Source of the DNA: Zea mays | Taxonomy: Eukaryota; Streptophyta; Magnoliopsida; Poales; Poaceae | Direction of reading: 5' to 3' | DNA: 64,000 nucleotides | Assembly (NCBI RefSeq): GCF_902167145.1 | Contig: NC_050097.1 | Span: forward strand, 228,861,034 to 228,925,033 | Shown: in pieces, positions 11,320 through 52,514 of the stretch | How positions within the stretch are numbered: the first letter of the stretch is position 1 | How the letters are laid out: the number at the start of each line of letters is the position of its first letter | Program-made: the position numbers and the translations under genes | The notes under the pieces: generated by a model | Told to the model about the DNA's origin: nothing | What the model saw: only the letters and a program-made list of their open reading frames with translations | The model's database searches: none

Positions 11320-11793
11320 TGTTGGAGCAAAGGCAGAAACGCCACCCTTCGCTCGAAGTCTCCGCTGCTTAGCCGCTACTCTGACAGACAAAGCAGGCAG
11401 GGACACCCTTCGCTCGATCGGCACCAGACAAAGACCAGCGACGAAGGCATCCCACAGTGCGGCCTCGTCCAGCTCAGAGGCCCACGTGCGATCCGGCCCA
11501 TTGTAACGGGCCCTGCGTGGCCGCCGTGTGTTACGGGCCTAATTTGTAAAGGCATCCCTGTAATTACAGTCTGTAACCCTGCTTTATGGGAATATTCTGG
11601 GGATAACCTAGGTAGCTGAGGGCACATGCGTCCTTAACACAGGGCGCTGGGCGTTCAGGTACCTATAAATACCCCCGCACAGTGCCCGTGAGAGGCCGGA
11701 GAAAATAGAGCTGTTTGCCATCTCACGCGTAACCCTACTGTCCACACTGTTCACCCCTGTTGGCTTTCTTGCGACCGTTAGCAAGTTCCAACA
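11320..11793 (+). repeat. 5' LTR of Gypsy B (474 bp)
   Basis: It starts TGTTGGAGC and ends TTCCAACA, a TG...CA structure with short inverted ends. It is the same length as the 3' LTR. Confidence 0.96.
11664..11671 (+). promoter_or_regulatory. TATA box in the Gypsy B 5' LTR
   Basis: TATAAATA lies about 120 bases before the LTR end. The 3' LTR has the same site at 23038-23045. Confidence 0.65.
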
Positions 11794-11795
11794 TT

Positions 11796-11808
11796 TGGCG
11801 CCCACCGT
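11796..11808 (+). promoter_or_regulatory. Primer-binding site of Gypsy B
   Basis: TGGCGCCCACCGT starts two bases after the LTR. It is complementary to the 3' end of tRNA-Lys(CUU) as I know it. Confidence 0.85.
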
Positions 11809-11833
11809 TCGTGCTACGACAAAACCACCCGCG

Positions 11834-13411: not shown

Positions 13412-13539
13412 CAACACCATCAGGAAGTACAAATCGTACCTCCTCCACCCCCACCTCCACACCAGCAACATCAAAACATCCCCCATGCCCCAAAGCAGGA
13501 AGACTTCGCCGATCAACCATATCGCGGAGTCATTCACAT

Positions 13540-16500
13540 GATAACAGGGGGTCCAGCACTGACTTCGACACCAAGCGGCAGAAGCGGGACCACTACCGCA
13601 GCATCATCCATGTCGCCGTCACTGGCCCAGTCGTGTAGACAAAGTGGTCCCACATACCGCTAACCTTCGACGCACGAGACGTCGACCTGCGCAGCGCCCC
13701 CCATATCGACGCCATGGTCATCAATTGCAGCGTGGCAGGCTGGGACTTACACAAAGTCCTAGTCGACAACGGCAGTCAGGCGGACATCATCTTCCTCCAC
13801 GCCTTCGACCGCATGGGTATAAGCCACAGCCTGCTCAAGCCTTCGGACAACCCGTTGTATGGCTTCGGCGGCAAGGGCACCTTTCCCGTTGGCAAAATAG
13901 AGTTGCCCCTCTCCTTCGGTGTAGCACCCAATGCCCGAAGTGAGCAAGTAACCTTCGACATTGTCGACATGGTATATCCATACAACGCCATCATGGGCCG
14001 GGGCTCCATCAATAAGTTCGAAGCTGCCATCCACGGACTGTACCTATGTATGAAGATACCAGGTCCGCTAGGCGCTATTACGATCTACGGCAACCAGCAG
14101 ACAGCGCGCAACATAGAGCGGGACTTCGTGCCTGGTCAGAGGAACGTGCACTGCCTCACGACCCAGCGCGAGGTCCCTGCGCCCGCCAGCCCAACCGATA
14201 AGCTGCATGACAAGGCACAGTTGCAGAGCCAAGACGGGACCAAGACTGTCCCCCTCGATCAGGCCATGCCCAAGCAGACAGTCACTGTCAGCGAAGACCT
14301 TACATCACATGAAGAGGAGAAGCTTCTCTGCTGCCTGGCCAAGAATAAAGATGTCTTCGCCTGGTCCGCCCTCGACCTGGTCGGAGTCAGCCGATCCATA
14401 ATTGAGCACAGCTTGGGAATTGACCCTTCGGTGCGACCAAAAAAGCAAAGGCTTCGCAAAATGTCCGACGAAAAGACAGAGGCCGCCAAGGCGGAGGTGC
14501 ACCGCCTCCTAGAAGCTAAATTCATCGAGCCAGTGGCTTACCCCACGTGGCTCTCCAATGTCGTAATGGTGCAGAAAAAAAGCGGGAAATGACAAATGTG
14601 CATAGACTTCACCAGTCTCAATAAGGCCTGCCCAAAGGACAATTTCCCGTTGCCGCGGATCGACAAAATAGTCGATAGCGCGGCCGGATGCGAGGTCATG
14701 TCACTCCTCGACTGCTTCTCCGGCTATCACCAGATATACATGAAGGAGGAAGACAAGGCTAGCACCAGCTTTATAACACCCTTCGGCACTTATTGCTTCA
14801 TCAGAATGCCGGAGGGACTCAAGAATGTCGGGTCCACCTTCTCCAGACTCACCAAAACAGTACTCGACGGGCAGGTTGGCAGAAACATATTTACATATGT
14901 GGACGACATCGTCGTCGCCAGCAAGAATAAGGAAGACCATCTCGCCGACCTCGCCGAGACATTCGCGAACATGCGAGATGCACGACTCCGCCTAAACCCG
15001 GAAAAGTGCGTCTTCGGTGTTCGCCAGGGCAAGATATTGGGCTACCTGGTGTCACATCGCGGCATCGAGGCCAACCCAACCAAGATCCAGGCCATCGTCG
15101 ACATGTCGCCTCCGCAGTCCGCCAGGGACGTCCAGCGTCTGACAGGCAGATTGGCCGCTCTCAACAGATTTATCTCCAGGTCCGCCGAGCGAAGCCTCCC
15201 CTTCCTCAAAACACTCCGCGGTGCAAAAGACTTCGCCTGGGGACCGGAGCAAGCAGCGGCCTTCGCCTCACTAAAACAGTACCTGTCGGAGCTGGCCATC
15301 CTCACGAGCCCCGACTCCTCGCTCCCCCTATTGCTCTATGTCGCGGCTTCGCCGCACGCGGTCAGCGCGGCACTAGTGCAGGAGCAGACAGTTGAGGGCG
15401 CGGTCAGGCAGTGCCCTGTTTACTATGTCTCCGAGGTCCTGACACCGTCCAAATGCAACATGACAGAGTTGGAGAAGATCGCCTACGCAGTTGTTATGTC
15501 TTCGCGCAAACTGCGCCATTATTTTGAAGCATTCAAGGTCCGAGTCACCTCAGATAGGGGGCTCGGCGAACTATTCAGGAACCCGGAGGCATCGGTGAGG
15601 ATTGCCAAGTGGGCAGCCGAACTCTCCGGCTACCACATCAGCTTCGAGCCCAGGACAGCCATCAAGTCACAAGTCCTGGCAGACTTCGTCGTCGACTGGA
15701 CTGGGCCAATAACACAGCCGGACCCGTCCACAGAGAAGGTTTGGACCATCCATTGCGACGACGCATGGTGCCATGCGGGGGCAGGCGTCGCTGCAGTCGT
15801 CACCTCACCAGCCGGAGTCAAACACAGATATGCAGCACGCCTCAGCTTCGCTCTGGAATCCGATAGATGCACAAACAATATAGCAGAGTATGAAGCGGTT
15901 ATCCTGGGCCTCCGCAAGCTAAGGGCCCTCGGAGTCACCACATGTATCATCAAAATAGACTCCAAGATAGTTGCCGGCCAGGTCGAGAAGGACTATGCAG
16001 CGAAAGACCCCGCGCTCATGCAATACCTCGCGGCCATCCGAAGTCTCGAGAGACAGTTTAAGGGATTCACCTTGCAGCATGTGGATAGGGCCAAGAACGA
16101 GGAGGCCGATGCACTGGCCAAGGCTGCCGCCAGGGGCGAGCCCTTGCCCTCCGACGTGTTCTTTCACACCATCGGCATGCCGGCTGTCCGGAGCCCCGAA
16201 GGGCTCCAAATAACTAATGACAGCGAGGGCCACCGCATAGTCAACCTAATCATGACCGAAGACTGGCGGGCACCAATAACCCTGTTCCTGCAGGGGTACT
16301 ATCATCCAACCGACGTCAGTGAGGCCAAGCGCCTCAGACATCGAAGCCGGGACTTCGCACTGATTGAGGGCCAACTCTACAAGAAAGGGGTCAGTCAGCC
16401 AATGCTTAAGTGCGTCACCGAAACCGAAGGCATGCAGATCCTACGAGAAGTCCACAGTGGCACGTGCGGTTCGCACGTAGGGCCAAGGGCCCTAGCTGCC

Positions 16501-17486
16501 AAGGTGATCCGCTAAGGGTTTTACTGGCCCGCAATGATCTGCGCCGCAAATCGGGTCACAAGGTCCTGCGAAGCCTGCCAGAAGTTCTCTCCTCGGTCAG
16601 GCAGCCCCTCGCAGTATACAAAGCTGATTGCCCATACATGGCCTCTCCAGCGCTGGGGCCTGGACATCGTCGGGCCCCTGCCCACCGCTTAGGGGAACCT
16701 CAAGTTCGCCTTCGTAGCCGTCGAATACTTCACCAAATGGATCGAAGCGAGGGCTGTTTCTACAATAACATCAAAGACTGCCCAGAAATTCTTCTGGCAA
16801 AACATTGTTTGCCGCTTCGGAGTACCGTCCAAGCTAACAGTTGACAACGGCAAGCAGTTTGACAGCCAAGATTTCAAGGATTTTTGTTTCTCCATCAGCA
16901 CCAAGCTTGCCTTCGCTTCAGTCTATCATCCGCAATCCAACGGGGTCGTGGAGCGCGCCAATGGAAAAATCTTCACAGCTGTCAAGAAGATGCTCCTCGA
17001 TGAAAAAAAGGCAGATGGACCGAATTGCTACCGGAGGCAGTCTGGGCGCTAAACACAACCGAGTGCAGGGCGACTGGGTTCACTCCTTTCCGCCTTCTTT
17101 ACGGATCGGAGGCCATGACCCCGCAAGAAATAAAGCATGGGTCCCCGCGTACAGTTCCGTCAGCCGTCCCCGACGTGGACGAGCCAACTTCAAAAGATCT
17201 CATTGACGGAGACCGGGTCTTCGCCCTACACGCCCTAAACAAATACCAAGCCCAGACCAAAGCATGGCGCGACCACGCAGTCATCCCGAGGGAGTTCAGC
17301 GAGGGGGACCTCGTACTCGTCCGAACAGCTCGGACGGAGTCCAGGGGCAAGCTGGAGCCCAAGTGGGAGGGCCCCTTTATAGTCAAGACAAAAGCTTCCC
17401 CCAGCGCTTACAGGCTCACAACGCCAAACGGCGAGGACCTGGAGCACTCCTAGAACATCGACAACCTTCGCAAATTTTTTGTTTGA
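13540..17486 (+). pseudogene. pol: Gypsy B pol: protease, RT, RNase H x2, integrase
   Basis: The enzymes for reverse transcription and integration, broken in many places. Protease has VDNGSQADI in place of the usual D-S/T-G (about 13760). RT has SLLDCFSGYHQI and the YVDD box (about 14900). The first RNase H is followed by a second, Tat-type RNase H (WTIHCDDAWCHAGAG, about 15740; IDSKIVAGQ and DALAKAA further on). Integrase has FTKWIEAR, VDNGKQF and SVYHPQSNG...E (16720-16960). Stops: TAG 13636-13638, TGA 14590-14592, TAA 16513-16515, a TAG near 16690, and TAG 17451-17453. The likely native stop is 17484-17486. Frame changes occur near 13555 and in an A-run near 17005. Nearly all stops fit one C-to-T or G-to-A step. 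Confidence 0.88.
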
Positions 17487-17724
17487 CTCATTAGGGCTGA
17501 TTTCGCCCTTGTAACTCGCCAAAAAACAATCTTGTACCGGCCCGCACTCTTTTCCTCCCGGGGGGTGAGGTTTTTAACGAGGCGGAGCCATGTAATATAT
17601 GTGTGAAAAATCCCCCGCAAAAACATGCGTCGAAAAAAGACCGCGACGACGGTCTTCGACATTCGACCAATTCGAGGTCACCGCGAGGCTAAGCGCTAGC
17701 CACCCTCGCGTGCGACAAATCCGC

Positions 17725-18400
17725 GCAGAAGTCGCCTAAGGGTGCAGCCGGAATAGCACAACAAGTGCGAAAAAACACGAAGTCTACCGCGAAGACTATC
17801 CGTGCAGAAGTCGCCAAAGGGTGCAGCCGGAATAGCACAACAAGTGCGAAAAAACCCGAAGTCTACCGCGAAGACTATCCGCGCAGAAGTCGCCTAAGGG
17901 TGCAGCCGGAATAGCACAACAAGTGCGAAAAAACCCGAAGTCTACCGCGAAGACTATCCGCGCAGAAGTCGCCTAAGGGTGCAGCCGGACTAGCACAACA
18001 AGTGCGAAAAAACACGAAGTCTATCGCGAAGACTATCCGTGCAGAAGTCGCCAAAGGGTGCAGCCGGAATAGCACAACAAGTGCGAAAAAACCCGAAGTC
18101 TACCGCGAAGACTATCCGCGCAGAAGTCGCCTAAGGGTGCAGCCGGAATAGCACAACAAGTGCGAAAAAACCCGAAGTCTACCGCGAAGACTATCCGCGC
18201 AGAAGTCGCCTAAGGGTGCAGCCGGACTAGCACAACAAGTGCGAAAAAACACGAAGTCTATCGCGAAGACTATCTGCGCAGAAGTCGCCAAAGGGCGCAG
18301 CCGGAATAGCACAACAAGTGCGAAAAAACTCGAAGTCTACCGCGAAGACTATCCACGCAGAAGCCGCCTAAAAGGCGCAGCCGAACAAGTACAACAAAGG
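17725..18400 (+). repeat. 79-bp tandem array in the Gypsy B 3' region
   Basis: About eight and a half copies of a 79-bp unit, with gcagaagtcgcc and caacaagtgcgaaaaaac as fixed landmarks. Variants alternate with a 237-bp (three-unit) period: the block at 17875-18075 reappears at 18112-18312 nearly unchanged, which points to unequal exchange in steps of three units. Tandem arrays in this position are known for Tat/Ogre elements. Confidence 0.93.
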
Positions 18401-18571
18401 CAGAAACGACAACATCAAACCGTCCGCGTTAAGACCGACTATAACCACACCAGCACAGCATAACAAAACATACCAGACAAAGTACACAACGCCTTCGCAG
18501 GCACAGGCAAGCGAGGGCACACAACTTCATCGTACAAGCCTTTACACATATACAAGCGAGGGCGCCGCACT

Positions 18572-21500
18572 CTATATCGGCTCAACCTTAGGAATAATTC
18601 CCATCTCCCTATAATTAAATAACATTATCCTAAGCTCCTCACCCGCAAAAAGACTTCGCAGTTCCCCTTCCCCTGTACTCACGGCGGCCGGCAAAGACAA
18701 CAGTTCTTGCCGACCAGCCCTACTCACACGAAGCCGAGCCCCTTCCTCCGTGCTAACCCTACGCTTTGCAACCGCCCTTCGTCGTCGGCGCCCGGTGCTA
18801 GTGCCTGGCACGTCTGGCGCGTCCGCGGCGTATGGCGTAGCCTCCGCCGCAGCCACATCCAAGGCCGCAAAATAATCCAAGTCCTCCTCCGACGACTCCT
18901 CAGTCCACTCAACCGAGCTCCCAGAGTCAGTAAAATCAAAAAACTCAGATGCAGATTCACCATATCCATTACCACCTTCCGCGGTCGAAGCCGCCAAAAA
19001 TTCAGTAGTAGCGGTTGCGTGCGCAGGCCCAAAATCTTGAACCTGCGCAGCAACCAAAATTCAGCAAAATATCCAAAATTCCCCAACCCTATACACCCAC
19101 TACGGCACCTGCGAAGGCCCTGACGCTTCGGGAGCCTCCACCGTTGCCTCCGCCGCCGCTTCCGCCGTTGTTTCCGCCGCCTCCGCCGCGGGATCTTCAG
19201 CACTCGGCACAGCAGCCGCGGGGGCATCAGGGGCGCCTTCGGCCACTTTTGGGGGCAGGTCCTCGCCGGCCGCAGCAGATGTAGGGGCAGCCGTCGCGAT
19301 CGCCGCGGTCTCCGGGGTTGGCTCCAGGGCGACCCCAGACACGGCCTCCGCAGGGGTCGGCTCCGGGTCAGGCAGCGCGCTGTTCAGCGCCCCGAAGTTG
19401 TCCACCCGCTCGCCACGCGCCGCCTAAGACAAAACACACAAAATTCAGCAAACACACGCACAGCCCGCATACAGCAAACGCCAAACAAACAACCTTACCT
19501 GAGCCCTCGCAGTCTCGGCCCGCTCCCTGACCACCTCCCGACCGTGCGGACCCCACATCCGGTCATAGAGGGCCCCGGCGGATTCCTTCACGACGGGGTC
19601 TTCGACCTTGTAGACATCTCGCTCAAAATCTTCATCTGCCTGGTCGAAGACCTCGAAGTGCCGGCACCCTTCGCGGGAGAGTGCGTTCATCGCCCCCTCG
19701 CAGGTGACCAGGGAGGCGTACGACATAAACCCCCCACGACAGTGGGGAGTTCCTGCAGCTCCTCCTGCACCCATTGCAGACAACGAAGCCCGGGCTCTCG
19801 GTCCGGCACCTCGAAGTCACCGGTCCGCGCACCCAGCTCACGATATGTATCCATAAGCTGCGCGCGCGTCCGTTCAGCCTCCGCACGCATCGCGGCCTCG
19901 GCCCCCTTCGCGCGGCTCTCCAGGGCGGTGAGCCGCTCCTGCAGATGTTCGGCGAGCTCCTTGGCAAGATTGCCCTCCGCCCGCGCCAGTTTGGCTTCCG
20001 CCTGCGCAGCCTGCTCCTTGGCGATGGCCTCGTTAGCCTCCCTCCTCTCCGCCGCCAGTTGGCGCCGGAGGTCAGCCTTCTCCCTCTCCAGGGCGGCCAC
20101 CTTGTCCGTCAGCTTACGGCACTTGCTGTCGGAGGCCGATTTCTCACGGACAGCGTCAGCATGTTGCGTTCGAAGTCTCTCGACTTCGGCAGACACAGCT
20201 GCCGTGAGGGCCCCCGACGCAGTACGGCTGGCGAAGTCAGCCACCTGCAGAGCACACGTAAGGCCGTTGCCCCAAAAGAAAGAGGTGGGGGAGAGAGTAT
20301 AGCTCAGCGGACCTGACTCAACGCCTCCGTCGCCTGACTCAGCGCCTCCGTCACTCCCTTCAGCCGGCGGGTCGCTGCGCCCGCCTCGTCCCTGACCACC
20401 GCGAGGGCCGACACCTCGCCTCCGGCGCCAAGAGCCTCGCCCCTCGTCTTCGGCACCATGGCAGCCGTCGCGGTCGCCGCGCCAGGCGCAACTATAGCAA
20501 GCTGGCCCTCGTCCGACCCTACAACGCATCAACGAATTAAAAAATAAAATATATAAATAATAATAATAATAATAATAAGCCAACGACTTACCACCAAGAT
20601 AGTCGTCCACAGAAATATCGGTGCCGAAGTCGGCAACACGTTTGCCCGACAACGGCAACGCTCGGGCTGCCCTCGAAGCCTCTGCCACTCCACTGGCCGG
20701 CGGCACCACCTTCGTTGATTTGGAGCCTCCGGCGCCCGCCGTTGCCTCCGGCGCCTTGCTAGGTGCAGAGGCGCCCGACTTCGTCGCCAGCGGCGGCTTG
20801 CCTCCGCCGGAGGCCGTAGCCTTCGCAGCCCCCCGCTGCCTCTTCGGCCTAGCTTCATGCAGCCTGACAGCCGCCTGGCGTTTTTGCGCCGCCCCTTGGC
20901 GATCCTTGTCCATCACTGCCCACACAACAGCACCGATATTCCGCCCGTAAGGAAAAACTCTCCATTTGCGAACCATGCGAGATGTAAAAACGTCCCCGCT
21001 GGCCGCGCGGGGGATAGGAACATTCCTAGGCCAGCAACCCCCGGTAACCTTCAGCATCCGAGCCGAAGACTCCCGGAGCTCGGGCGAAGACATCCTTTCC
21101 CCCGGGGCCGCGCATGTCCTCATCAACTCTCTAGCAAACCCATCGGAAACCCCAAGTCCTCCCATGGCAGTACCTAGTTTCCTCTTCTTAGAGGATGGGG
21201 CGGCCGCCGGCGCAGGGTCGTCTTTAGTCTCCACCATCGGTTTCTTCCCCCGGCGGTCCGCGTCGTCTTGACCAGGATAGCCGTCATATGGCAGTTGGTT
21301 CAATTCGAAGACCCTATTCAAACGATCATTCGACCCGCGGATCTCCCAGCTGCGCTGGCCCTCGGTCCTTAGCACATAACGCCCAACAAGCCGCACCGCC
21401 TCATCCTCAGCTTCACGCACGAAGGCGGCCGGATCACGGTTTCGCAGATTAAGCGCGAAGGCGGGACTCTGCACCATCTCTCCACCACGGAAAGGCATCT

Positions 21501-22326
21501 GGCGAGGGCATACTTCGCCCAACGCCCAACCATGCGCCAAGGGCCATACCCCGTACGCCACAAACTCTTCAACCAAGTCGCGCCCACTGCTCTGGCCGGC
21601 GGCACTCCGAAGGGCCCCTTCGTCCACATCATCCTCCGCCACTTCAAAGGGCGGGTACGCCGAGTAAAAATGAGAGCACATCTCGGACACGGGAAGTCCC
21701 TCGTGGCCTTCGACGGTACCCTCAGCAACGTAAAACCAAAATTCGTTCCAGTTGCCCCACTTGTTGCGGGCGCAAGGGACCAACTCGACTACTGGCATCG
21801 TGGTCTTGCCGGTCTTCGGCGTGAATGTGCAGGACCCAAACTGAGCAACTTCGTCCCCGATCATCCTCTTCTGCCAGTGTAAACAATAATGCTTCACAAA
21901 AACTTCGACCGATGGCTGTCCGCCGTAAGAAGTCGTCGCCCATACATACATCGACAGGGCCACCACAGCATTCGGCGTCAGCTGATGCATTTGCACGTTG
22001 AACCTGCGCAGGACTTCGCCAACAAACCGATGCGCAGGCAAGCGGAGACCGGCGGCGAAAAACGCCTCGAAAACAACCAACTCGCCCTCCGGCTCGGGGA
22101 CTTTCTCCGTCCCCGGGGCACGGGCAACTCCGCCGCCGAAGTAGCCCAAACGCTGCATATCCTCCACGCGGGCCGACGACATTCGCGACACGCCGAAATC
22201 AACGGAATCGCCGGCGCGCAACTCCTCCGGCATCAAGCTGCTCAGCGTCTCCTCCGACGAGGCGGTGGCCGGCGGCGAGGAACCGTCCGGCGGCGTAGCG
22301 GCAGCGGAAGAAGAGGAAGACGGCAT
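18572..22326 (-). pseudogene. Antisense gene of Gypsy B (gypsy-type transposase-like protein, PF04195 type)
   Basis: This is a separate gene on the strand opposite to gag-pol, between the tandem array and the 3' LTR. ATG 22326 gives a Ser-rich start, then a conserved globular block (FFAAGLRLPAHRFVGEVLR to NKWGNWNEFWFYV). Reading goes on to DDYLGG, where a GTAAG donor opens an intron with an (ATT)n run (20560-20578). Further probable exons give a long Ala/Arg/Glu-rich coiled coil (about 20240-19760), the GGFMSYASLV region after a frame slip in a G-run near 19730, and two acidic C-terminal parts (19426-19100 and 19039-18572, stop at 18572-18574). The domain is found in antisense frames of Tat elements; its function is unknown. 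A TATA box lies 160 bases upstream. Confidence 0.75.
20560..20578. repeat. (ATT)n microsatellite in the antisense-gene intron
   Basis: A short run of taa/att triplets just after the splice donor of the antisense gene. It makes a false poly-Tyr peptide in one frame. Confidence 0.9.
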
Positions 22327-22483
22327 CGCTACGTACCGTCGGCGGCGGCGGGCAGTCTGCTTCACTCGCGCCAGATCTCCGGCGAACAAGAGCACGGCGG
22401 GCAGACGAGCAGCAAGACGACGGGCGGCTAGGGTTTTCGCGGAGCGCACAAAAGTAAAGTTCAAAAAGCGTCGGCCCCCGCCC

Positions 22484-22492
22484 CCTTTTATA
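22484..22492 (-). promoter_or_regulatory. TATA box of the Gypsy B antisense gene
   Basis: The minus strand reads CTATAAAAGGGGGC about 160 bases before ATG 22326, inside the element and not in the LTR. It suggests an independent promoter. Confidence 0.6.
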
Positions 22493-22683
22493 GGCAGGGC
22501 GCGGCTCTTCGGGAAACCCGCAATCCAACAGAGCGCGACGCTTCGGGAAACCCGCAATCCAACTGTATGCGGTCAATCAACGGTCACATCAAAAACCCCC
22601 GCGAAACCACTTCGAGCGAGGGCAACGTCTCCGCCATCTAGCGACGTCTTCGGCACCAGGTGACTTTGTCGAACTGGTCCCTC

Positions 22684-22693
22684 GGAGGGTAGA
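22684..22693 (+). promoter_or_regulatory. Polypurine tract of Gypsy B
   Basis: ggagggtaga lies directly before the 3' LTR, where the plus-strand primer is expected. Confidence 0.7.
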
Positions 22694-23167
22694 TGTTGGA
22701 GCGAAGGCAGAAACGCCACCCTTCGCTCGAAGTCTCCGCTGCTTAGCCGCTACTCTGACAGACAAAGCAGGCAGGGACACCCTTCGCTCGATCGGCACCA
22801 GACGAAGACCGGCGACGAAGGCATCCCACAGTGCGGCCTCGTCCAGCTCAGAGGCCCACGTGCGATCCGGCCCATTGTAACGGGCCCTGCGTGGCCGCCG
22901 CGTGTTACGGGCCTAATTTGTAAAGGCATCCCTGTAATTACAGTCTGTAACCCTGCTTTATGGGAATATTCTGGGGATAACCTAGGTAGCTGAGGGCACA
23001 TGCGTCCTTAACACAGGGCGCTGGGCGTTCAGGTACCTATAAATACCCCCGCACAGTGCCCGTGAGAGGCTGGAGAAAATAGAGTTGTTTGCCATCTCAC
23101 GCGTAACCCTACTGTCCACACTGTTCACCCCTGTTGGCTTTCTTGCAACCGTTAGCAAGTTCCAACA
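22694..23167 (+). repeat. 3' LTR of Gypsy B (474 bp)
   Basis: TGTTGGAGC to TTCCAACA, same length as the 5' LTR, with seven transition differences by eye. It is followed by the ttcga target duplication. Confidence 0.96.
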
Positions 23168-24143
23168 TTCGACAATTTCATTAACAAGAATGTGTCCACT
23201 TAATGGCTCAACTATGTGTATCATGCAGGTTTGCCTTTGGCACCAGCGTTGTGGAGTACAACAGGACAATAGGTCAAGGGAAGGCATCGTCTTCGGCAAG
23301 GAGTTCTCGCTCCTCCAAGTCTGCTCGAGAGGCTCAGCTGGAGGAGGAGACTCGGGCAGCACAGGAGCAGGCTCGAGCAGCACAGGAGCAGGCTCGAGCA
23401 GCGCAGGAGCAGGTCGGACAGCTGACGCAGTATATGGCTTCTTATTTTCAGGTAATTCGTCTATCTCATCACGTGTCATTGAATTCAAAGTATAATGTTG
23501 CGATTCTAATGTTTCATCCATTTGCAGGAAATGACTACTCGACTCGGCCCTGATATGAACTTGCCCGCTTTTCGCCCTCCCCAGGTAACACTATCTGAAC
23601 ACTTCAATTCCATAGCAACTCTTTTTTATTATCAAAAATGGCTCGCAGGCACAAGGATGGGGACAGTGGCCAGGACAAGCTCCAGCGTCGCAGCCACAGT
23701 GGACTGGTGTTGGGTGGACGCAGGCACCTCCAGGCACTTGGACGCCTCCACCACCCCAAGGATCGCAGCCAGTCCCGGGATGGGTGCCACCGGTCTCCCA
23801 GCCACCGGTGGGCTCTCAGCCATTTCAAGCGTGGATGGCACCGCCACCGACGAGGTGGGTGCCACCACCTCAGGGGTGGCCAGCACAACAGTATCCGTGG
23901 ATGCATGCATAGCCTCCTCATCACCATGGATCACAGGTCACGTTCCATGTTTAGTTTTATGCAAATGGTGACCAAACATAGCAATGTATAGGTATAGGGA
24001 TAGCAAAACACAACCTTATTTGAATGATTGATGAATTGCAGGGTTCAGCGTCACATGCTCAGGGATCAGAGGGTGCTGTCAACGTCCAAGACTTCTTCGT
24101 CCATGGTTCTGGAGGCAGTGGCCAAAACTCCCACAGCCCGTAG

Positions 24144-25871: not shown

Positions 25872-26408
25872 AAAACTATGTATGGACTATGGACTTATGG
25901 ACTATTTATGTAATATGGAAGGTTGTGAATGTGTTTTGTGAATTGTGTATTTTGCTTGTGAATCTGTATATGTGAATTGTGATATTGTGAATTGTGTCTT
26001 TTGCTTTCAATTGAAAGGTGCACAAAATTCTGTTTTTGGGGGGTATCATGAATTTTCGTCGGCCTGATTGAAGGCCGACGAAAATACTACCCAGCTATTT
26101 TCGTCGGCCACCACCGGGACCGACGAAAATACGGTCCAGCTATTTTCGTCGGCCACCACCGGGGCCGACGAAAATCAGGCTCCTATTTTTGTCGGCCACT
26201 GAAGCCGACGAAAATAGTCAGCCGACCAACTATTTTCGTCGGCTTTGAGGAAGCCGACGAAAATAAATAATTTCCGTCGGTACCGACGTAATTAGTTGCC
26301 TAGTTTCGTCGAACTTATTTTCGGCGGCTGCCGACGAAAATAGTGTATTTTCGTCAGTTTACGTTTATTTTCGTGGGTTTTTGGCCCACGGAAATTTAGG
26401 TGTTTCCT
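25872..26408. repeat. CACTA right subterminal region, copy B, and most of the right terminus
   Basis: It begins as a repeat of 24224-24603, then continues through further TATTTTCGTCGGC motifs and the mirror of the left end (cgtgggtttttggcccacg, about 26370) to gtttcct at 26402-26408. The final gtagtg of the terminus is displaced to 35512-35517 by element C. Confidence 0.9.
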
Positions 26409-27538
26409 TGTAACACCTCAAATCCATCAATTAAAATAACGTATTACTAGTTGTTAAACTTAGTAGGGAGTAAATTAAAATTCGAATCAAGTGTTTGATG
26501 TATTCATTTTTTTGTCAATATGATTTTGTTTGTTTGTAAAGTGCAAGGATTTCATTTTTGTTTATTTATTTAAGTATTCTCTTGTGTGATGTCCAACTCA
26601 TTTAAATAATAGAAATTTTCTAGAGATTATTTATTTTATTTGTTAAAATATTATTATTAGATTTAATATACTTTTCGAATAATTAAAATATATTTAATAA
26701 TGAATAACTATTAAAAAAATAAATAATGAATTTCGAAATTAAAAAAAAAAACAAATCGGCCGCTGGCCAACTGGCCCAGGTAGCTTCACGTTCCCTCCCC
26801 TAAGCCAATGATGTGTGGACCTATTCCCTCTCTTCTCTCCTCTATGACGTGTAGGGGCCACCTATTGTCTTCCCCAAATCACAGTAAGGAACGCATCGCA
26901 TCGCACAGCCGCCGCCGCTGTGTCTTCTCCCTCCCTAACTCTCTCTCTCCCTCCTTCTCTCTTCTCTCCCATGCTCTCTCTGCTCTCCCTCACACGCACC
27001 AGGTAGTCGCCAGGAGCGAGCCGCTCCTGCCCTGCCCGCACAGGCGCGTTCCGCACAGCAGCCGTTGCCCAGCCGCCTCTGCACCGAGCGTGCAGACGAG
27101 CCTCGGCCTCCCCGCGCAAGCAGCCGAGCCGCCCTTCCCCGCGCCCGGACGCGACCCGGCCAAGCCGCGCCATGGACGCCACCCAGCGCGCCCGACCGCA
27201 TCGAGTGCCTGCGCTCCAGCCCGTGCGACGCCACACCTGAAACCGAAGCCGAGCCCCAACCCGACGAGGCCCCAACGCATCGAGCCAAAACCCACGCCTG
27301 CGACACCGCGCCAGCAAGCCAGGCCGCCGACCGAACCTTGCCAGGGAGCGAGCTCCTGCCCCGTTCGTTCACCAACGGCAGTAATGGAGCTTCAATCGTG
27401 ACCATTATTCTCCCTACGTTATGGAGTTCAAGGCACTCGTTTCTTTTCTTTGGAAACCGACGCATCTATGGCACTTGAAGACAGCCAACGCCCATTGAAG
27501 CTCTCCCTGGCAGACTCTTCTTCTTCCCTCCCTCTCTC

Positions 27539-27547
27539 TATAAAAGG
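27539..27547 (+). promoter_or_regulatory. TATA box in the left LTR of element C
   Basis: TATAAAAGG lies after a CT-rich run, about 1.1 kb into the LTR. The mirror site is at 34369-34377 on the minus strand, so the two promoters point at each other across the palindrome. Confidence 0.7.
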
Positions 27548-28736
27548 CACCAGAGACCCTCTTCTTTCTCCTGCCTACCCAAGCTCACTCCATCTCTCTA
27601 GCTCGCCAGTACACTGCTCGACGCCGTCGTTCGTCGCCGGAGCCCGTGGAGTTCGTCGGAGTGTGCCGTTCGTCGCCGGAGTTCACCGGAGCCACGCATT
27701 CGCCGTGGATAGTCGAGCCCCTGCTTTTCTCCACCCGGCCGAACCCCGTCGAACTCTCCCCGTCGCACGCACGAACCCAAGGTTGAAGACAACCCAATTA
27801 TTTTGTGTATTTTATAAAATACTTTTTGATTCGATTCATGAGTTGTATATTTTGTTTGTTGTAATATGAACACATGTGATTCCGATTTATGTATATATGA
27901 GTGTTATGGAATTGTTTGGTAGATTCATGCGATTATTAGCATCGTGTTATGTCATGTTAGTCGTGGCGTTGAATTTTGGACTAGAGAAATATGACAACAT
28001 TTAGTAGTCACACGTTGGCGATAAAAATGCTAGATAGGAATTTTTGTAGTTAAATTGGGTCGCGATAAATTCTAGAAACTATTTGGAGAATTATAGGTGC
28101 ATTTTAAGTGGATTTAGAAAAATGGTGTAGAACGCATGTCATATGAATAAAATAGGATTTTTAGATGATTTATCCGATTATTTAATTAATAATATTCTTT
28201 TAGAAAAAAAAGAGAAAATATCACCATTAGTGTGGAAAATAGATTTTTGCTAGTTAAATAATCTTGTTCGCAAATTGAGCACTTAGATTTTTAGATTAAG
28301 CAAAATACTAGTTGATGTAAAAATATCCTCACTTGTGTTATAAAAAGCCCAATTACCAATTTATGTAGATTTTTAGAATATTAATATTATTAAATTTATT
28401 TTTGCTATACTAACTAACTGGAGTTAGAAGTAATAAAAGGTATTAATTCATTTATTAGCATTAAAAGACAATAAGTATTATTTATTTTCATTAATGATGT
28501 TAAAATATATTTAAACTGTATTTATTACACCCACTTATAAATTCACCATTAGGATTCACATTAATAGCTATAATTGAATTAATAAGTAGTTATGCGATTA
28601 GGACGAATTTAAGATGTGATTAGTGCGATATGTTAATGTGTGTTTAATGACGTACTGGTGTATGTTTATGAAATGGTGCATGTTTATTTATTTATGTATG
28701 TTTTATTTTTGTATGTGCGCTATGCGACTCTATTAG

Positions 28737-29854
28737 AAGCCGATTGTGCGGTAGGCGAACCAATTTCGTTCGAGGATGATCCGCAGGACTCACTTGAGCA
28801 AGGCAAGTGGATTCTCCCTCTGCATATTCTGTTTGTACCTATTCATTGCATACAATAATGTTTACTTTTTGATATACTGCATAATTTGTTGGGTTATACC
28901 TAATTAAGGATTTCCTAGATTTACTACCTGTATTCCTTGTTTAACCTGGGAAATAATTAAGCTGTGCAAAAATTTATGCTACCGCCCAACTTAATGATTC
29001 CTAATGTCACTCATTAATTGGTTTTAATGTTCCAAGGATTTAATTGGCAATTATGGCATTAACCCGATGGTTAAGATAACATTATTACAAATTTAATTGG
29101 AACATGGAGTGACCACCCAGGATAACAGTGCAACCACGAGTGCTATCATGGCTCTGGCTTTGGTAATTAGCTCTATATGCTTAGTGCCAAGCAACCTTAC
29201 CTGAAAGATGGGCAAGAGGGGGAGCGGTAGGTGCTGGCAGCCCACGTTAACATGGGGTCGTATTCTTGGCTAAGATACTGCACCCAGGGGGCCACCACCA
29301 TCGTCTTAGAAACCTTAGCGGGTTGCTTCGTATTAAGTGTATTTTGTGAAAACCTCATAATGGATCCCTAGCCATTCACCTCGGCAGTGTCTAAGGGTCC
29401 GATCAACCCGGGCTAGATGGGATACATGTCTTGTGGGTAAAGTTGTACCACCTCTGCAGAGTGTAAAACTGATATATCAGTCGTGCTCCCGGTTATGAGC
29501 GACCTGGACTCCTCACATGATAATTGAACTTGAAGATGGAATTAAATTGAGATCCGATGATCTGCCAATAATTTGCTTAAGTGGTTTCACTTAACTGTTT
29601 TTGTTATATTCATATTCCTTTGTTTAAATGGGATATTTGGGATTCACTCTTATCAGTAAGACAGGTGTTGTTAATAAAATGTTGACCAACTAAAATGCTT
29701 ACTGCTCAACCTTAGCCTCACCTTGTTATACCTGCATTAGTTTTTCCCCCACTTGCTGAGCCCCGACCATAAGTGAGCTCACCCTTGCTTATTTTGATCA
29801 GAGGGTGATGCTGGAGACTTTGATGGAGATTTTATCGACGACGATGATTTCTAA
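28737..29854 (+). CDS. Candidate spliced acidic reading frame in the element C LTR
   Basis: Proposed exons are an upstream one ending at 27781 (acccaag before gt), 28737-28802, and 29802-29854 with stop TAA 29852-29854. The second exon follows ttag, has 66 bases and ends at a GC donor (gcaagt). The third follows gatcag. Joined in phase 1, the frame reads EPISFEDDPQDSLEQ and then an Asp-rich tail ending DDDDF. Gypsy D has the same arrangement (43648-43716 and 44697-44782) with the same phases and another acidic tail. No ATG was found for the upstream exon, so translation is unproven. It could instead be a noncoding leader with conserved splice sites. No known domain is recognised. Confidence 0.35.
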
Positions 29855-30103
29855 GTCTAACGATGCGCCGGTCATCTTCCTGTTGGAGATTGCCCAGTTG
29901 TTTATTTCCGCTTTACTTTGATGTGATACTTGTTAAAGATACAATATTTCAGATGATGTAATAAAGTATTCTACTCTCTTTACGCCTTTATTGCATTGTC
30001 TTTTGATATACTACACTTGTGATGTCAACATATGTGTGGAAATGGATCCTGGCACACATATGGTATGCGCTCGGTCTACCCCTGGAACGGGGTGTGACAG
30101 AAG

Positions 30104-30115
30104 TGGTATCAAAGC
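30104..30115 (+). promoter_or_regulatory. Primer-binding site, left arm of element C
   Basis: TGGTATCAAAGC, one mismatch from the usual initiator Met-tRNA site TGGTATCAGAGC, starts four bases after the LTR. Confidence 0.85.
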
Positions 30116-30250
30116 TATGCTGACCCTAGGTCGTTAGATTAGTTAGAAATGGAAAGCCTAGTTGTTCAAAACTTGCTAATTTCATTCCTATAAATTCCTT
30201 TATCAGTCTTACCTCTTTGAAATTCAACTGAGTTGACACTTCTCTTGTAG

Positions 30251-30938
30251 ATGGTTCGCACTCTCCAAACTACTCGCATCAACACCAGCTACGCCCCTCA
30301 GCCCCGGTAGATCCCGGTCTACCCAGTGGTAGTCGAGGAAGTTCCGGCGGATCTCCCTCCCATCCGAGTGGAGAATGTAGTCAACCTGGAGGACAGCTCG
30401 GAGGAACAGCTGCCGACGCCCACCCCGTTGGCAGAGTCCCTGGCCTTCGCAGCTGGGTCATCGACGTCAGCACCGCCTGCACCAGCCTTCCAAGCACCTG
30501 CACCCGGAGGCGACGACCCCGACGACTCCGGAGACGACGATGACGAGGATGACGATGACGAAGAAGGTGGAGACGAACACGTCCACGAGGAAGCTGACTA
30601 CGCCCAGCAGGACAACTTCATGGGGTTTGGTCCTGTTGTCGAACATTACACATCAATGTTCGAGACGGGGCACTTCCCCAACCTGCTACAAGAAGTGTTG
30701 CACGCGCTAGGCACCTACGTCCGCCCCCTATACGAAACAAGGCGAGTGAGCGAGCCTCCCCGGGCTTGCTATTACATCACTCGCATCCATGTCAGGGTGA
30801 TGGATGCAGGTGACAGGGGATTCAGGACTCTGTCTGCTCACGAGTCCCTGACACCACTGTCCACCTACGCTGCCTCGGTCAGCGATGCTGCCCGTCGGAC
30901 CCTGTGGTCGCTCAGCCACACCTACCGACAGCAGCTGC
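30251..30938 (+). pseudogene. Element C upstream ORF, left copy, with a stop
   Basis: The frame starts at ATG 30251 (MVRTLQTTR), has TAG at 30308-30310 where the right copy has CAG, and then stays open to the palindrome center. It has an acidic DDSGDDDDEDDDDEEGG run and a domain (LLQEVLHALGTY to RRTLWSLSHTY). That domain aligns by eye with the ORF of Gypsy D at 45299-46312 (DALDTLLRRAF to RRALSHYCSVF). The protein is an accessory ORF placed before gag, as described for some Tekay/RIRE3-like elements; its role is not known. Confidence 0.75.
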
Positions 30939-30976
30939 AGAACACAAGAATCGAATCAAACAAAATATTTTATGCA
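30939..30976. other. 38-nt loop at the center of the palindrome
   Basis: Not symmetric, hence not part of either arm. It contains gaatcgaatcaaa and aaacaaaatat, both of which also occur within about 40 bases of each other in the element's own LTR (around 34055-34105), so it may be filler copied from the LTR. Confidence 0.8.
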
Positions 30977-31664
30977 GCAGCTGCTGTCGGTAGGTGTGGC
31001 TGAGCGACCACAGGGTCCGACGGGCAGCATCGCTGACCGAGGCAGCGTAGGTGGACAGTGGTGTCAGGGACTCATGAGCAGACAGAGTCCTGAATCCCCT
31101 GTCACCTGCATCCATCACCCTGACGTGGATGCGAGTGATGTAATAGCAAGCCCGGGAAGGCTCGCTCACTCGCCTTGTTTCGTATAGGGGGCAGACGTAG
31201 GTGCCTAGCGCGTGCAACACTTCTTGTAGCAGGTTGGCGAAGTGCCCCGTCTCGAACATTGATGTGTAATGTTCGACAACAGGACCAAACCCCATGAAGT
31301 TGTCCTGCTGGGCGTAGTCAGCTTCCTCGTGGACGTGTTCGTCTCCACCTTCTTCGTCGTCGTCATCCTCGTCATCGTCGTCTCCGGAGTCGTCGGGGTC
31401 GTCGCCTCCGGGTGCAGGTGCTTGGAAGGCTGGTGCAGGCGGTGCTGACGTCGATGACCCAGCTGCGAAGGCCAGGGACTCTGCCAACGGGGTGGGCGTC
31501 GGCAGCTGTTCCTCCGAGCTGTCCTCGAGGTTGACTACATTCTCCACTCGGATGGGAGGGAGATCTGTCGGAACTTCCTCGACTACCACTAGGTAGACCG
31601 GGATCTGCCGGGGCTGAGGGGCGTAGCTGGTGTTGATGCGGGTAGTTTGGAGAGTGCGAACCAT
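30977..31664 (-). pseudogene. Element C upstream ORF, right copy, truncated
   Basis: Starts at ATG 31664 on the minus strand, directly after a tag that resembles a splice acceptor. It is open without internal stops to the center of the palindrome; the frame closes at 30912 inside the opposite arm. It keeps CAG where the left copy has TAG. The normal C-terminal part of the protein is missing, so it is a fragment. Confidence 0.75.
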
Positions 31665-31799
31665 CTACAAGAGAAGTGTCAACTCAGTTGAATTTCAAAG
31701 AGGTAAGACTGATAAAGGAATTTATAGGAATGAAATTAGCAAGTTTTGAACAACTAGGCTTTCCATTTCTAACCAATCTAACGACCTAAGGTCAGCATA

Positions 31800-31811
31800 G
31801 CTTTGATACCA
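31800..31811 (-). promoter_or_regulatory. Primer-binding site, right arm of element C
   Basis: TGGTATCAAAGC on the minus strand, the exact mirror of 30104-30115. Confidence 0.85.
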
Positions 31812-31815
31812 CTTC

Positions 31816-34800
31816 TGTCACACCCGGTTCCAGGGGTAGACCGAGCGCATACCATATGTGTGCCAGGATCCATTTCCACACATATGTTGACGTCACAAGT
31901 GTAGTATATCAAAAGACAATGCAATAAAGGCGTAAAGAGAGTAGAATACTTTATTACATCATCTAAAATATTGTATCTTTAACAAGTATCACATCAAAGT
32001 AAAGCGGAAATAAACAACTGGGCAATCTCCCACAGGAAGATGACCGGCGCATCGTTAGACTTAGAAATCATCGTCGTCGATAAAATCTCCATCAAAGTCT
32101 CCAGCATCACCCTCTGATCAAAATTAAGCAAGGGTGAGCTCACTTATGGTCGGGGCTCAGCAAGTGGGGGAAAAACTAATGCAGGTATAACAAGGTGAGG
32201 CTAAGGTTGAGCAGTAAGCATTTTAGTTGGTCAACATTTTATTAACAACACCTGTCTTACTAATAAGAGTGAATCCCAAATATCCCATTTAAACAAAGGA
32301 ATATGAATATAACAAAAACACTTAAGTGAAACCACTTAAGCAAATTATTGGCAGATCATCGGATCTCAATTTAATTCCATCTTCAAGTTCAATTATCATG
32401 TGAGGAGTCCAGGTCGCTCATAACCGGGAGCACGGCTGATATATCAGTTTTACACTCTGCAGAGGTGGCACAACTTTACCCACAAGACATGTATCCCATC
32501 TAGCCCGGGTTGATCGGACCCTTAGACACTGCCGAGGTGAATGGCTAGGGATCCATTATGAGGTTTTCACAAAATACACTTAATACGAAGCAACCCGCTA
32601 AGGTTTCTAAGACGATGGTGGTGGCCCCCTGGGTGCAGTATCTTAGCCAAGAATACGACCCCATGTTAACGTGGGCTGCCAGCACCTACCGCTCCCCCTC
32701 TTGCCCATCTTTCAGGTAAGGTTGCTTGGCACTAAGCATATAGAGCTAATTACCAAAGCCAGAGCCATGATAGCACTCGTGGTTGCACTGTTATCCTGGG
32801 TGGTCACTCCATGTTCCAATTAAATTTGTAATAATGTTATCTTAACCATCGGGTTAATGCCATAATTGCCAATTAAATCCTTGGAACATTAAAACCAATT
32901 AATGAGTGACATTAGGAATCATTAAGTTGGGCGGTAGCATAAATTTTTGCACAGCTTAATTATTTCCCAGGTTAAACAAGGAATACAGGTAGTAAATCTA
33001 GGAAATCCTTAATTAGGTATAACCCAACAAATTATGCAGTATATCAAAAAGTAAACATTATTGTATGCAATGAATAGGTACAAACAGAATATGCAGAGGG
33101 AGAATCCACTTGCCTTGCTCAAGCGAGTCCTGCGGATCGTCCTCGAACGAAATTGGTTCGCCTACCGCACAATCGACTTCTAATAGAGTCGCATAGCGCA
33201 CATACAAAAATAAAACATACATAAATAAATAAACATGCACCATTTCATAAACATACACCAGTACGTCATTAAACACACATTAACATATCGCACTAATCAC
33301 ATCTTAAATTCGTCCTAATCGCATAACTACTTATTAATTCAATTATAGCTATTAATGTGAATCCTAATGGTGAATTTATAAGTGGGTGTAATAAATACAG
33401 TTTAAATATATTTTAACATTATTAATGAAAATAAATAATACTTATTGTCTTTTAATGCTAATAAATGAATTAATACCTTTTATTACTTCTAACTCCAGTT
33501 AGTTAGTATAGCAAAAATAAATTTAATAATATTAATATTCTAAAAATCTACATAAATTGGTAATTGGGCTTTTTATAACACAAGTGAGGATATTTTTACA
33601 TCAACTAGTATTTTGCTTAATCTAAAAATCTAAGTGCTTAATTTGCGAACAAAATTATTTAACTAGCAAAAATCTATTTTCCACACTAACGGTGATATTT
33701 TCTCTTTTCTTTCTAAAAGAAGATTATTAATTAAATAATCGGATAAATCATCTAAAAATCCTATTTTATTCATATGACATGCGTTCTACACCATTTTTCT
33801 AAATCCACTTAAAATGCACCTATAATTCTCCAAATAGTTTCTAGAATTTATCGCGACCCAATTTAACTACAAAAATTCCTATCTAGTATTTTTATCGCCA
33901 ACGTGTGACTACTAAATGTTGTCATATTTCTCTAGTCCAAAATTCAACGCCACGACTAACATGACATAACACGATGCTAATAATCGCATGAATCTACCAA
34001 ACAATTCCATAACGCTCATATATACATAAATCGGAATCACATGTGTTCATATTACAACAAACAAAATATACAACTCATGAATCGAATCAAAAAGTATTTT
34101 ATAAAATACACAAAATAATTGGGTCGTCTTCAACCTTGGGTTCGTGCGTGCGACGGGGAGAGTTCGACGGGGTTTGGCCGGGTGGAGAAAAGCAGGGGCT
34201 CGACTGTCCACGGCGAATGCGTGGCTCCGGTGAACTCCGGCGACGAACGACACACTCCGGCGAACTCCACGGGCTCCGGCGACGAACGACGGCGTCGAGC
34301 AGTGTACTGGCGAGCTAGAGAGATGGAGTGAGCTTGGGTAGGCAGGAGAAAGGAGAGGGTCTCTGCTGCCTTTTATAGAGAGAGGGAGGGAAGAAGAAGA
34401 GTCTGCCAGGGAGAGCTTCAATGGGCGCTGGCTGTCTTCAAGTGCCATAGATGCGTCGGTTTCCAAAGAAAAGAAACGAGTGCCTTGAACTCCATAACGC
34501 AGGGAGAATAATGGTCGCGATTGAAACTCCATTACTGCCGTGGGTGAACGAACAGGGCAGGAGCTCGCTCCCTGGCAAGGTTCGGTCGGCTGCCTGGCTT
34601 GCTGGCGCGGTGTCGCAGGCGTGGGTTTTGGCTCGATGCGTTGGGGCCTCGTCGGGTTGGGGCTCGGCTTCGGTTTCAGGTGTGGCGTCGCGCGGGCTGG
34701 AGCGCAGGCACTCGATGCGGTCGGGCGCGCTGGGTGGCGTCCATGGCGCGGCTTGGCCGGGTCGCGTCCGGGCGCGGGGAAGGGCGGCTCGGCTGCTTGC

Positions 34801-35506
34801 GCGGCGAGGCCGAGGCTCGTCTGCACGCTCGGTGCAGAGGCGGCTGGGCAGCGGCTGTTGTGCGGAACGCGCCTGGGCGGGCAGGGCAGGAGCGGCTCGC
34901 TCCTGGCGACTACCTGGTGCGTGTGAGGGAGAGCAGAGAGAGTATGGGAGAGAAGAGAGAAGGAGGGAGAGAGAGAGAGTTAGGGAGGAAGAAGACACAG
35001 CGGCGGCGGCTGTGCGATGCGATGCGTTCCTTACTGTGATTTGGGGAAGACAATAGGTGGCCCCTACACGTCATAGAGGAGAGAAGAGAGGGAATAGGTC
35101 CACACGTCATTGGCTTAGGGGAGGGAACGTGAGGCTACCTGGGCCAGTTGGCCAGCGGCCGATTTGTTTTTTTTAATTTCGAAATTCATTATTTATTTTT
35201 TTAATAGTTATTCATTATTAAATATATTTTAATTATTCGAAAAGTATATTAAATCTAATAATAATATTTTAACAAATAAAATAAATAATCTCTAGAAAAT
35301 TTCTATTATTTAAATGAGTTGGACATCACACAAGAGAATACTTAAATAAATAAACAAAAATGAAATCCTTGCACTTTACGAACAAACAAAATCATATTGA
35401 CAAAAAAATGAATGCATCAAACACTTGATTCGAATTTTAATTTACTCCCTACTAAGTTTAACAACTAGTAATACGTTATTTTAATTGATGGATTTGAGGT
35501 GTTACA
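31816..35506 (-). repeat. Right LTR of element C (3,691 bp, inverted)
   Basis: The mirror copy of 26409-30099 and identical in length. Where I compared them, the arms differ at roughly one to two percent of sites, mainly transitions. This is an ordinary amount for LTRs that diverged after insertion. Confidence 0.93.
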
Positions 35507-35517
35507 TTCCTGTAGTG

Positions 35518-52461: not shown

Positions 52462-52469
52462 TATTTATA
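52462..52469 (-). promoter_or_regulatory. TATA box in the Copia 2 LTR
   Basis: TATAAATA on the minus strand; the 5' LTR has the same at 60633-60640. It lies in the loop of a short inverted repeat of GGTTGGGG and CCCCAACC. Confidence 0.6.
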
Positions 52470-52514
52470 GCCCCAACCACCAAACTTGACCGTTGGTGGG
52501 AGGCTTCTGTTCGA

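Follow-up and report, generated by a model that had tools for sequence, protein, structure and literature searches.

A palindrome of 9 kb at positions 26409–35506 of the window (the whole 64,000 nt stretch of maize DNA analysed here) probably arose as a palindromic Ty3/gypsy LTR retrotransposon cDNA, which integrase inserted a single time via two U3 ends. The evidence strongly favours an origin by strand switching while the cDNA was being made, because the two arms are mutually closest, have private bases in common and are accompanied by three other inverted units of the same family with target duplications.

Anatomy of the palindrome and its insertion site

The palindrome is confirmed as real and its length alone excludes chance; in a self-alignment, 26409–35506 is 98.36% identical to its reverse complement over 9105 columns. 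This alignment and the end positions bear out a preliminary description of two inverted 3,691 nt LTRs, each with a primer site. The left LTR is complete (26409–30099, forward strand, TGTAACACC...GGTGTGACA), with its end defined by alignment with ordinary copies, and its mirror image, the complete right LTR, occupies 31816–35506 on the reverse strand (...GGTGTTACA), the U3 end being outermost in both. The TGTAACACC LTR start was found upstream in 13 of the 20 ordinary copies retrieved. In the left arm, a 4 nt spacer (GAAG) separates the LTR from a primer-binding site, TGGTATCAAAGC (30104–30115, forward strand), which we take to resemble the complement of initiator-Met tRNA, and a second primer-binding site lies at 31800–31811 on the reverse strand. 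Each LTR also contains what we presume from its motif to be a TATA-like box directed inward (27537–27548, forward strand; 34368–34379, reverse strand).

The internal arms (30100–30938, forward strand; 30977–31815, reverse strand) are each 839 nt long, and the 687 bases described earlier are instead the length counted from the ORF start (687–688 nt). The left arm includes the start of an upstream ORF with an ATG at 30251 and, where the frame was read directly in the sequence, an in-frame stop at 30308–30310, while in the right arm the ORF is open from 31664, across the loop, to 30912. The palindrome's own ORF gave no Pfam match. Mirrored coordinates sum to 61915 at both the outermost and the innermost positions, as had been noted, but the symmetry is not exact: over 4,535 aligned columns the arms show 62 substitutions, four of them at the junction, and there are 6 gap columns in addition. 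The indels happen to offset one another, which keeps the ends in register.

TTCCT is present on both flanks (26404–26408 and 35507–35511), directly outside the two U3 ends, in agreement with the preliminary description. The host is a CACTA-type DNA transposon (5641–35517) with termini CACTACAGGAAA, a 3 bp duplication (AAT) outside them and a Transpos_assoc domain at 7337–8077, and its last 6 bp directly follow the right TTCCT. Excision of the palindrome in silico restored the host CACTA terminus and left TTCCT present once. TTCCT is therefore a true target duplication, and together with the like outer ends this shows that the palindrome integrated once, as one unit, as had been proposed.

Ordinary copies of the family have the LTR ends, GAAG spacer, primer site and upstream ORF of the palindrome, but their LTRs are direct whereas those of the palindrome are inverted. 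Among the best 40 matches listed, close LTR matches were direct at 19 loci and inverted in the palindrome alone. The palindrome shares with Ty3/gypsy elements the TG...CA LTRs with a primer site inside (TGTAACACC...GGTGTGACA, GAAG, TGGTATCAAAGC) and the 5 bp target duplication (TTCCT), and the protease–RT–RNase H–integrase order was found in L018, the one ordinary copy tested, which features gag, CCHC, RVP_2, RVT_1, RNase H and integrase zinc domains. In place of the usual direct LTR pair, with U3 outermost on one side and U5 on the other, the palindrome has inverted LTRs and two outer U3 ends. On these sequence features, the palindrome is classed as an aberrant product of a Ty3/gypsy family and not as an ordinary member.

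Kinship of the arms and the central junction

The arms diverge from each other by 1.37%, while each arm differs from each of 20 copies by at least 3.2% in shared columns, and 43 of 3,382 columns hold bases private to both arms and absent from the copies sampled. Across the full length of U3 only the two arms match, with partial matches elsewhere and no parent copy bearing this U3 among the best 40 of 496 candidates, and in the middle of the LTR the next relative is ∼90% identical (best 40 of 2058 candidates). For the internal part alone, the arms are 2.1% apart (847 columns, four junction mismatches included) and the left arm and ordinary copy L009 2.6%, a narrow difference that weakens the case for this part. 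Adequate outgroup data were available for 39 arm differences, which were polarised as 13 left-derived, 15 right-derived and 11 ambiguous; 18 of the 28 polarised changes are C>T or G>A, the pattern expected of post-insertion ageing. A further 19 non-junction differences had scant outgroup data. These alignments show the arms as each other's closest relatives, aged evenly. A contribution of mixed templates is unlikely but conceivable, given the 11 ambiguous differences out of 39 and the 19 with little outgroup data.

At the centre, a self-complementary 8-mer, GCAGCTGC, forms the innermost left (30931–30938) and right (30977–30984) stems around a loop whose 38 nt length (30939–30976) had been given correctly, although only its first ∼10 nt match ordinary copies. 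These 10 nt (AGAACACAAG, 30939–30948, forward strand; most copies have AGAACACGAG) are the ordinary continuation of the left arm past the right arm. They are followed by 25 nt of filler that resembles the LTR of this family near arm position 1410 (30949–30973, reverse strand) and is antisense to the left arm, and by GCA (30974–30976), possibly a 3 nt stutter of the stem. Aligned with the arm antisense, the filler scores 18 of a possible 25, which none of 1000 shuffles reached (shuffle maximum 17). It is an inexact copy of either arm's LTR, and its best genomic relatives have two mismatches; besides itself, only two related LTR copies in the genome match it with at most two. This calls for another LTR as template or for error-prone synthesis, and the presence of this filler implies at least two switches. 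Because ordinary copies part from the palindrome beyond 30948, the simplest version of snap-back, with a natural loop, is ruled out. The earlier suggestion of plus-strand snap-back or strand switching during reverse transcription is thus supported as regards the switch, which arm kinship and the sister units favour, but the filler defeats simple snap-back. The full 108 nt centre was found once in the genome (best 40 of 316 candidates). Single-strand folding of 30880–30976 gave a weak signal (z −1.77, with 6 of 200 shuffles equally good).

Inverted units in the family and the origin of the palindrome

Three other inverted units occur in the same family. The chromosome 4 unit has U5–U5 ends, a CTGTG target duplication and a join that falls precisely on the U3 terminus and includes two extra bases. 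The chromosome 7 unit has U3–U3 ends, an inverted 3′ LTR and flanks that agree with one mismatch (ATTAC/GTTAC); its join lies exactly between the PPT end and an unprocessed U5 end (CTTC), and with its joined flanks as query, 16 of the 40 matches listed span the join. The chromosome 6 unit, read in part, has ordinary ends enclosing an inverted stretch and a GTCAG duplication. The chromosome 4 and 6 units switch within ∼5–7 nt of each other, ∼255 nt before the LTR end. An RNA start at that position could account for this common breakpoint, but the TATA-like box lies far upstream, which argues against it. All three units probably arose by a sense reversal similar to that behind the palindrome. 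The three junctions tested are each single-copy, so the inverted units do not constitute an element group. Likewise, several copies with the same centre, as expected of a multi-copy palindromic group, were not seen among the best 40 of 316 candidates, and by this sequence evidence the palindrome is one insertion and not an element group.

Inverted units account for 4 of 61 multi-anchor loci in a biased sample, or 3 of 60 without the palindrome under study, and the first 100 primer sites of the 981 listed yielded no further palindrome. A candidate second palindrome at chromosome 1, 145.68 and 145.78 Mb, was rejected when one of the two loci was inspected and its sides proved to be different families. 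Facing primer sites are 6,570 bp apart at both loci, which are therefore probably duplicates. Five head-to-head U5–U5 loci (LTR ends, four with TAAG-type spacer remnants) were not counted as inverted units; four of them, all but C4:38.6, were sampled where a single LTR length placed their outer ends, and showed no arm-to-arm similarity. At C4:136.5 Mb and C5:199.5 Mb, the LTR starts found, three in total, come after PPT-like sequence, so none of these LTRs is an outer U3 end, and at C2:188.5 and C5:212.7 no LTR start lay within the stretches sampled.

Opposite-strand switching or fold-back of the nascent plus strand fits the palindrome best, with end joining less probable. After the second strand transfer, a plus strand comprising U3-R-U5-PBS and 839 nt of internal sequence would have left its minus template and primed first on a plus-sense LTR, which would yield the 25 nt of antisense LTR. 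The strand would then have primed again at GCAGCTGC, either on itself or on a sister plus strand, and copied this template up to the template's 5′ end, the U3 terminus. Formation of a two-ended duplex from the resulting molecule would place U3 at both ends. Fold-back would yield a closed hairpin first, which counts against the mechanism, and we infer that this hairpin was then converted into an open duplex carrying U3 at each end. Integrase probably took two U3 ends since the U3 and U5 termini of the family are nearly the same as inverted sequence (TGTAACACC / TGTCACACC, 8 of 9).

Polymerase-theta end joining, too, is characterised by microhomology and by short templated filler, and both a 25 nt LTR-like filler and short microhomology are found at the palindrome centre. 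Host alternative end joining, using a templated filler, could thus have linked two truncated cDNAs (each U3-LTR-PBS-839 nt) end to end before the U3–U3 product was integrated, or the halves could have integrated at one site and been joined later. The other units lend this some weight, in that the chromosome 7 join, with the PPT end on one side and the unprocessed U5 end on the other, looks as if made at defined DNA ends, and the chromosome 4 join, with its two additional bases, sits precisely on the U3 terminus. One study (PMC10959353) ascribes LTR-retrotransposon DNA circles to autointegration and end joining. However, both arms end within ∼10 nt of one internal position, which would be rare for independent truncations, the second switch sits in a self-complementary 8-mer, and the filler is antisense as self-copying predicts (otherwise a 1 in 2 chance). 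We therefore regard end joining as rather unlikely.

A further alternative is that two ordinary elements inserted in opposite orientation, one inside or beside the other, and that a deletion followed. Neighbours in opposite orientation do exist, such as the chromosome 1 145.68 Mb pair, which is two different families, and at least one head-to-head locus made of two different elements. For the palindrome this course is highly improbable and is rejected on the strength of the arm relationship (equal lengths, mutually closest) and by the one common target duplication at the outer U3 ends, with the host terminus restored. Fold-back reads are a known class of artefact, but a sequencing read or assembly folded back on itself is scarcely credible here: the arms carry 62 substitutions, the palindrome stops exactly at the LTR ends, the differing flanks combine into one host element and the window contains zero Ns.

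Returning to strand switching, the inverted units together look like the outcome of an error that recurs during reverse transcription and gives like-ended products capable of integration. Tentatively, and with somewhat less than even confidence, sense reversal could be recurrent in this lineage, making up a few percent of recent insertions, with U3–U3, U5–U5 and internally inverted products accepted by integrase much like normal ones and breakpoints clustered at a defined stop (for example, a cDNA or RNA end). If so, palindromic products might serve as natural loci for hairpin RNA directed against the family; the 9 kb palindrome, with two inward promoters, is a candidate hairpin-RNA source. 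The palindrome and the chromosome 7 unit (two U3 ends) and the chromosome 4 unit (two U5 ends), with their target duplications, provide natural evidence of like-ended cDNA insertion by a plant LTR-retrotransposon integrase, suggesting that this enzyme accepts two ends of the same kind. Junction filler, microhomology and breakpoints are a readable record of sense reversal in reverse transcription. As the palindrome has no direct LTR pair, finders of direct LTRs should miss such elements, and inverted-LTR elements may be under-counted elsewhere.

Comparison with known systems

In older work on avian retroviruses, plus-strand DNA served as template for palindromic or inverted-repeat viral DNA. 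These inverted DNAs, which likewise come from a plus-strand template, are described as unintegrated or circular molecules, whereas the palindrome sits in the chromosome between copies of a target duplication. Inverted terminal repeats are also found in DIRS-type elements, but these use a tyrosine recombinase and are not known to make a target duplication; the palindrome has a target duplication, and the one relative analysed encodes a Ty3/gypsy-type pol (RT, RNase H and integrase zinc-binding domain). A literature search by title and abstract opening found no integrated palindromic or U3–U3 plant element, which is weak evidence of absence given that few subscription papers were covered.

The template-switching complexes of Sabot and Schulman (2007) are likewise faulty LTR retrotransposon cDNAs that entered the genome as single units, with a 5 bp target duplication and highly similar outer LTRs, and include one maize (Opie) case (PMC1950507). 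They consist of two elements sharing an LTR, with three LTRs in one orientation, and were explained by a jump between two RNAs (PMC1950507). The palindrome resembles them in having one target duplication and outer LTRs that are very alike, but has two inverted LTRs and no third, internal one. Unlike these complexes, it is reversed in sense and both of its outer ends are U3, and this sense reversal calls for a DNA strand as template or for end joining.

Structure and integration of the palindrome

Genome searches were carried out against 2.18 Gb in 655 contigs, in which the window, which contains no Ns, is G000:C2:228861034-228925033 (G000, the genome searched; C2, its chromosome 2). Alignment of 26409-35506 with its own reverse complement gave a 98.36% match over 9105 columns. 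The inner LTR ends of this palindrome are GGTGTGACA, followed by GAAG and then TGGTATCAAAGC, while both outer ends, read inward, are TGTAACACC, the U3 start of its LTR, as the preliminary description had claimed. The two arms differ by 62 substitutions in 4,535 columns (48 transitions; four of the 62 at the junction), a K2P distance of 0.0138, which corresponds to ∼0.5 million years at an assumed rate of 1.3e-8 substitutions per site per year.

The palindrome sits in a CACTA-type host element (5641 to 35517) with a left end of CACTACAGGAAA, AAT duplicated outside it and a Transpos_assoc domain within. TTCCT lies on either side of the palindrome, and removal of the palindrome with one TTCCT copy restores the host right end, CACTACAGGAAACACC. 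The TTCCT pair is therefore a genuine target duplication, and both halves were inserted together, which bears out the earlier proposal of integration as one unit.

Other elements are also present in the window. An LTR-like pair (98.5% identical over 478 bp) around gypsy-like ORFs is nested in the CACTA host at 11318-23169 and includes a tandem array (17719-18397) with a repeat unit of ∼79 bp. A gypsy-type element within 41724-64000 has an LTR from 41724 and a primer site near 45040; a copia-like element has inserted into its 3' LTR, very recently, as the LTRs of the copia-like element (51894-53216 and 60065-61387) are 99.9% identical.

Template of the arms and sequence of the centre

Copies from 20 of 39 other listed loci were fetched for comparison. 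Over shared columns, the arms are 1.37% apart versus about 3.2% or more to each of the 20 copies, although the margin is small for the internal part alone, where the arms are 2.1% apart (including junction mismatches) versus 2.6% between the left arm and L009, a stretch from chromosome 4. The two arms agree, at 43 of 3,382 columns, on a base that none of the sampled copies has. Among the best 40 of 496 candidates, only the two arms matched U3 at full length; elsewhere the matches were partial, with pieces of up to ∼350 nt (72-83%), one of 339 nt on chromosome 9 (94%) and shorter ones (80-97%). For the middle of the LTR, the next match after the arms was 90% (best 40 of 2058 candidates). The parent copy was not found among the genome search matches listed. 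Outgroup data were sufficient for 39 arm differences, comprising 13 left-derived, 15 right-derived and 11 unclear, and 18 of the 28 polarised differences are C>T or G>A. Such balanced changes are the pattern expected if the arms were identical at insertion, and these sequence comparisons indicate, as far as tested, that both arms came from one template.

At the centre, ordinary copies run on as CAGCAGCTGCAGAACACGAGGTTC (six copies, minor differences), and the palindrome instead reads GCAGCTGC, AGAACACAAG, a 25-nt filler (30949-30973), GCA and GCAGCTGC. The exact sequence of this filler occurs once in the genome, and at up to two mismatches it is found elsewhere only in two LTR copies related to the palindrome's family, to which they are 84-96% identical over larger aligned pieces. 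Antisense comparison of the filler with the arm's own LTR gave a score of 18, whereas none of 1000 shuffles scored above 17. The whole 108-nt centre was a single occurrence among the best 40 of 316 candidates.

Inverted units elsewhere in the genome

A second inverted unit of the family (G000:C4:114757127-114770136, stretches L009, L039 and L040), read along the minus strand, opens with CTGTG and a complete inverted LTR. Two extra bases separate this LTR from the final ∼258 nt of a sense LTR, after which come the primer site, the internal region, a full sense LTR and again CTGTG. U5 is at both outer ends, with CTGTG as the duplication, and the exact U3 terminus of the inverted LTR meets LTR position about -258. 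Its full LTRs have 58 differences in 3,384 sites, and the junction occurred once among the best 40 of 3030 candidates.

The third unit, with an inverted 3' LTR (G000:C7:23672575-23685375, L041-L043), was read except for ∼4.9 kb of internal region and consists of ATTAC, a sense LTR, the internal region as far as the very last base of the polypurine tract (PPT), CTTC, a complete inverted LTR finishing in U3, and GTTAC. CTTC is the complement of the GAAG spacer, denoting an unprocessed U5 end. Both outer ends are U3, the duplication (ATTAC/GTTAC) has one mismatch and the LTRs have 68 differences in 3,397 sites (K2P 0.0203). The junction has one occurrence at up to three mismatches, versus 91 exact ordinary PPT-U3 junctions. 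When the flanks were joined, 16 of 40 listed matches (79-83% identity) crossed the join, which shows that the host repeat has relatives uninterrupted at this point.

The fourth unit (G000:C6:28974781-28990501, L044-L047) has a 5' LTR that contains an inverted excursion, a structure that assumes continuity across three LTR stretches (about 1.1, 2.6 and 2.6 kb). GTCAG and a sense LTR to slightly beyond half length are followed by an inverted stretch, which runs from ∼132 nt before the LTR end back through U3, the PPT and ∼0.74 kb of internal region. The final ∼252 nt of a sense LTR come next and lead into the primer site, the internal region, an LTR and GTCAG. The outer ends are ordinary, with GTCAG as the duplication. 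The unit is young, since its inverted copies are near-identical (768/768 sites; 99.7% of 659). The chr4 and chr6 breakpoints lie ∼5-7 nt from each other.

From the matches listed in seven genome searches, 398 anchors, picked by similarity or exact match and partly from other families, formed 267 clusters, with 61 spanning at least 2 kb and six of mixed orientation. Four of these six are the inverted units in the window and on chr4, chr7 and chr6, where one anchor of the chr4 cluster came from a query containing its own junction. The remaining two are a pair on chr1 and what is probably a duplicate of it, of which one was read and is not a palindrome. The first 100 of 981 primer sites included no palindrome. 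Among the matches listed, 19 distinct loci had close LTR matches in direct orientation and the window alone had them inverted, and all eight close U3-start pairs counted were direct. The primer-site, LTR and U3-start counts speak against inverted units being common.

Sister-family LTRs lie head to head by their U5 ends at C2:188500747, C4:38627070, C4:136502400, C5:199472902 and C5:212733899 of G000, with primer-site-like remnants between the LTRs at four of the five. Two of four sampled were ruled out as U3-ended palindromes by 3' LTRs behind PPT-like sequence. At G000:C2:167500091-167519895, three family LTR matches in direct orientation, ∼9 kb apart, represent a candidate direct three-LTR template-switching complex.

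Formation of the palindrome and relation to known complexes

The palindrome is a single integration with like ends and an LTR-like antisense filler, and the family has other inverted units. The likely route is that the plus strand, extending past the second strand transfer, twice switched from the minus strand to plus-sense templates and in the end copied a plus strand, either itself or a sister, as far as its U3 terminus; a hairpin would then have been converted to a two-ended duplex. A mirror event on the minus strand fits the chr4 and chr6 units. The main rival is end joining of cDNA pieces, for which the case is strongest in the chr7 unit, where two defined ends meet. As for integration, the family's U3 and U5 termini have one difference in nine bases, and this near-identity may have led integrase to accept like ends.

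No integrated palindromic U3-U3 element was found in a partial coverage of the literature at the level of titles and abstract starts. The palindrome is a Ty3/gypsy derivative of aberrant origin, neither an ordinary member of its family nor a separate group. Sabot and Schulman (PMC1950507) described similar template-switching complexes, but those are direct, whereas here the sense is reversed.
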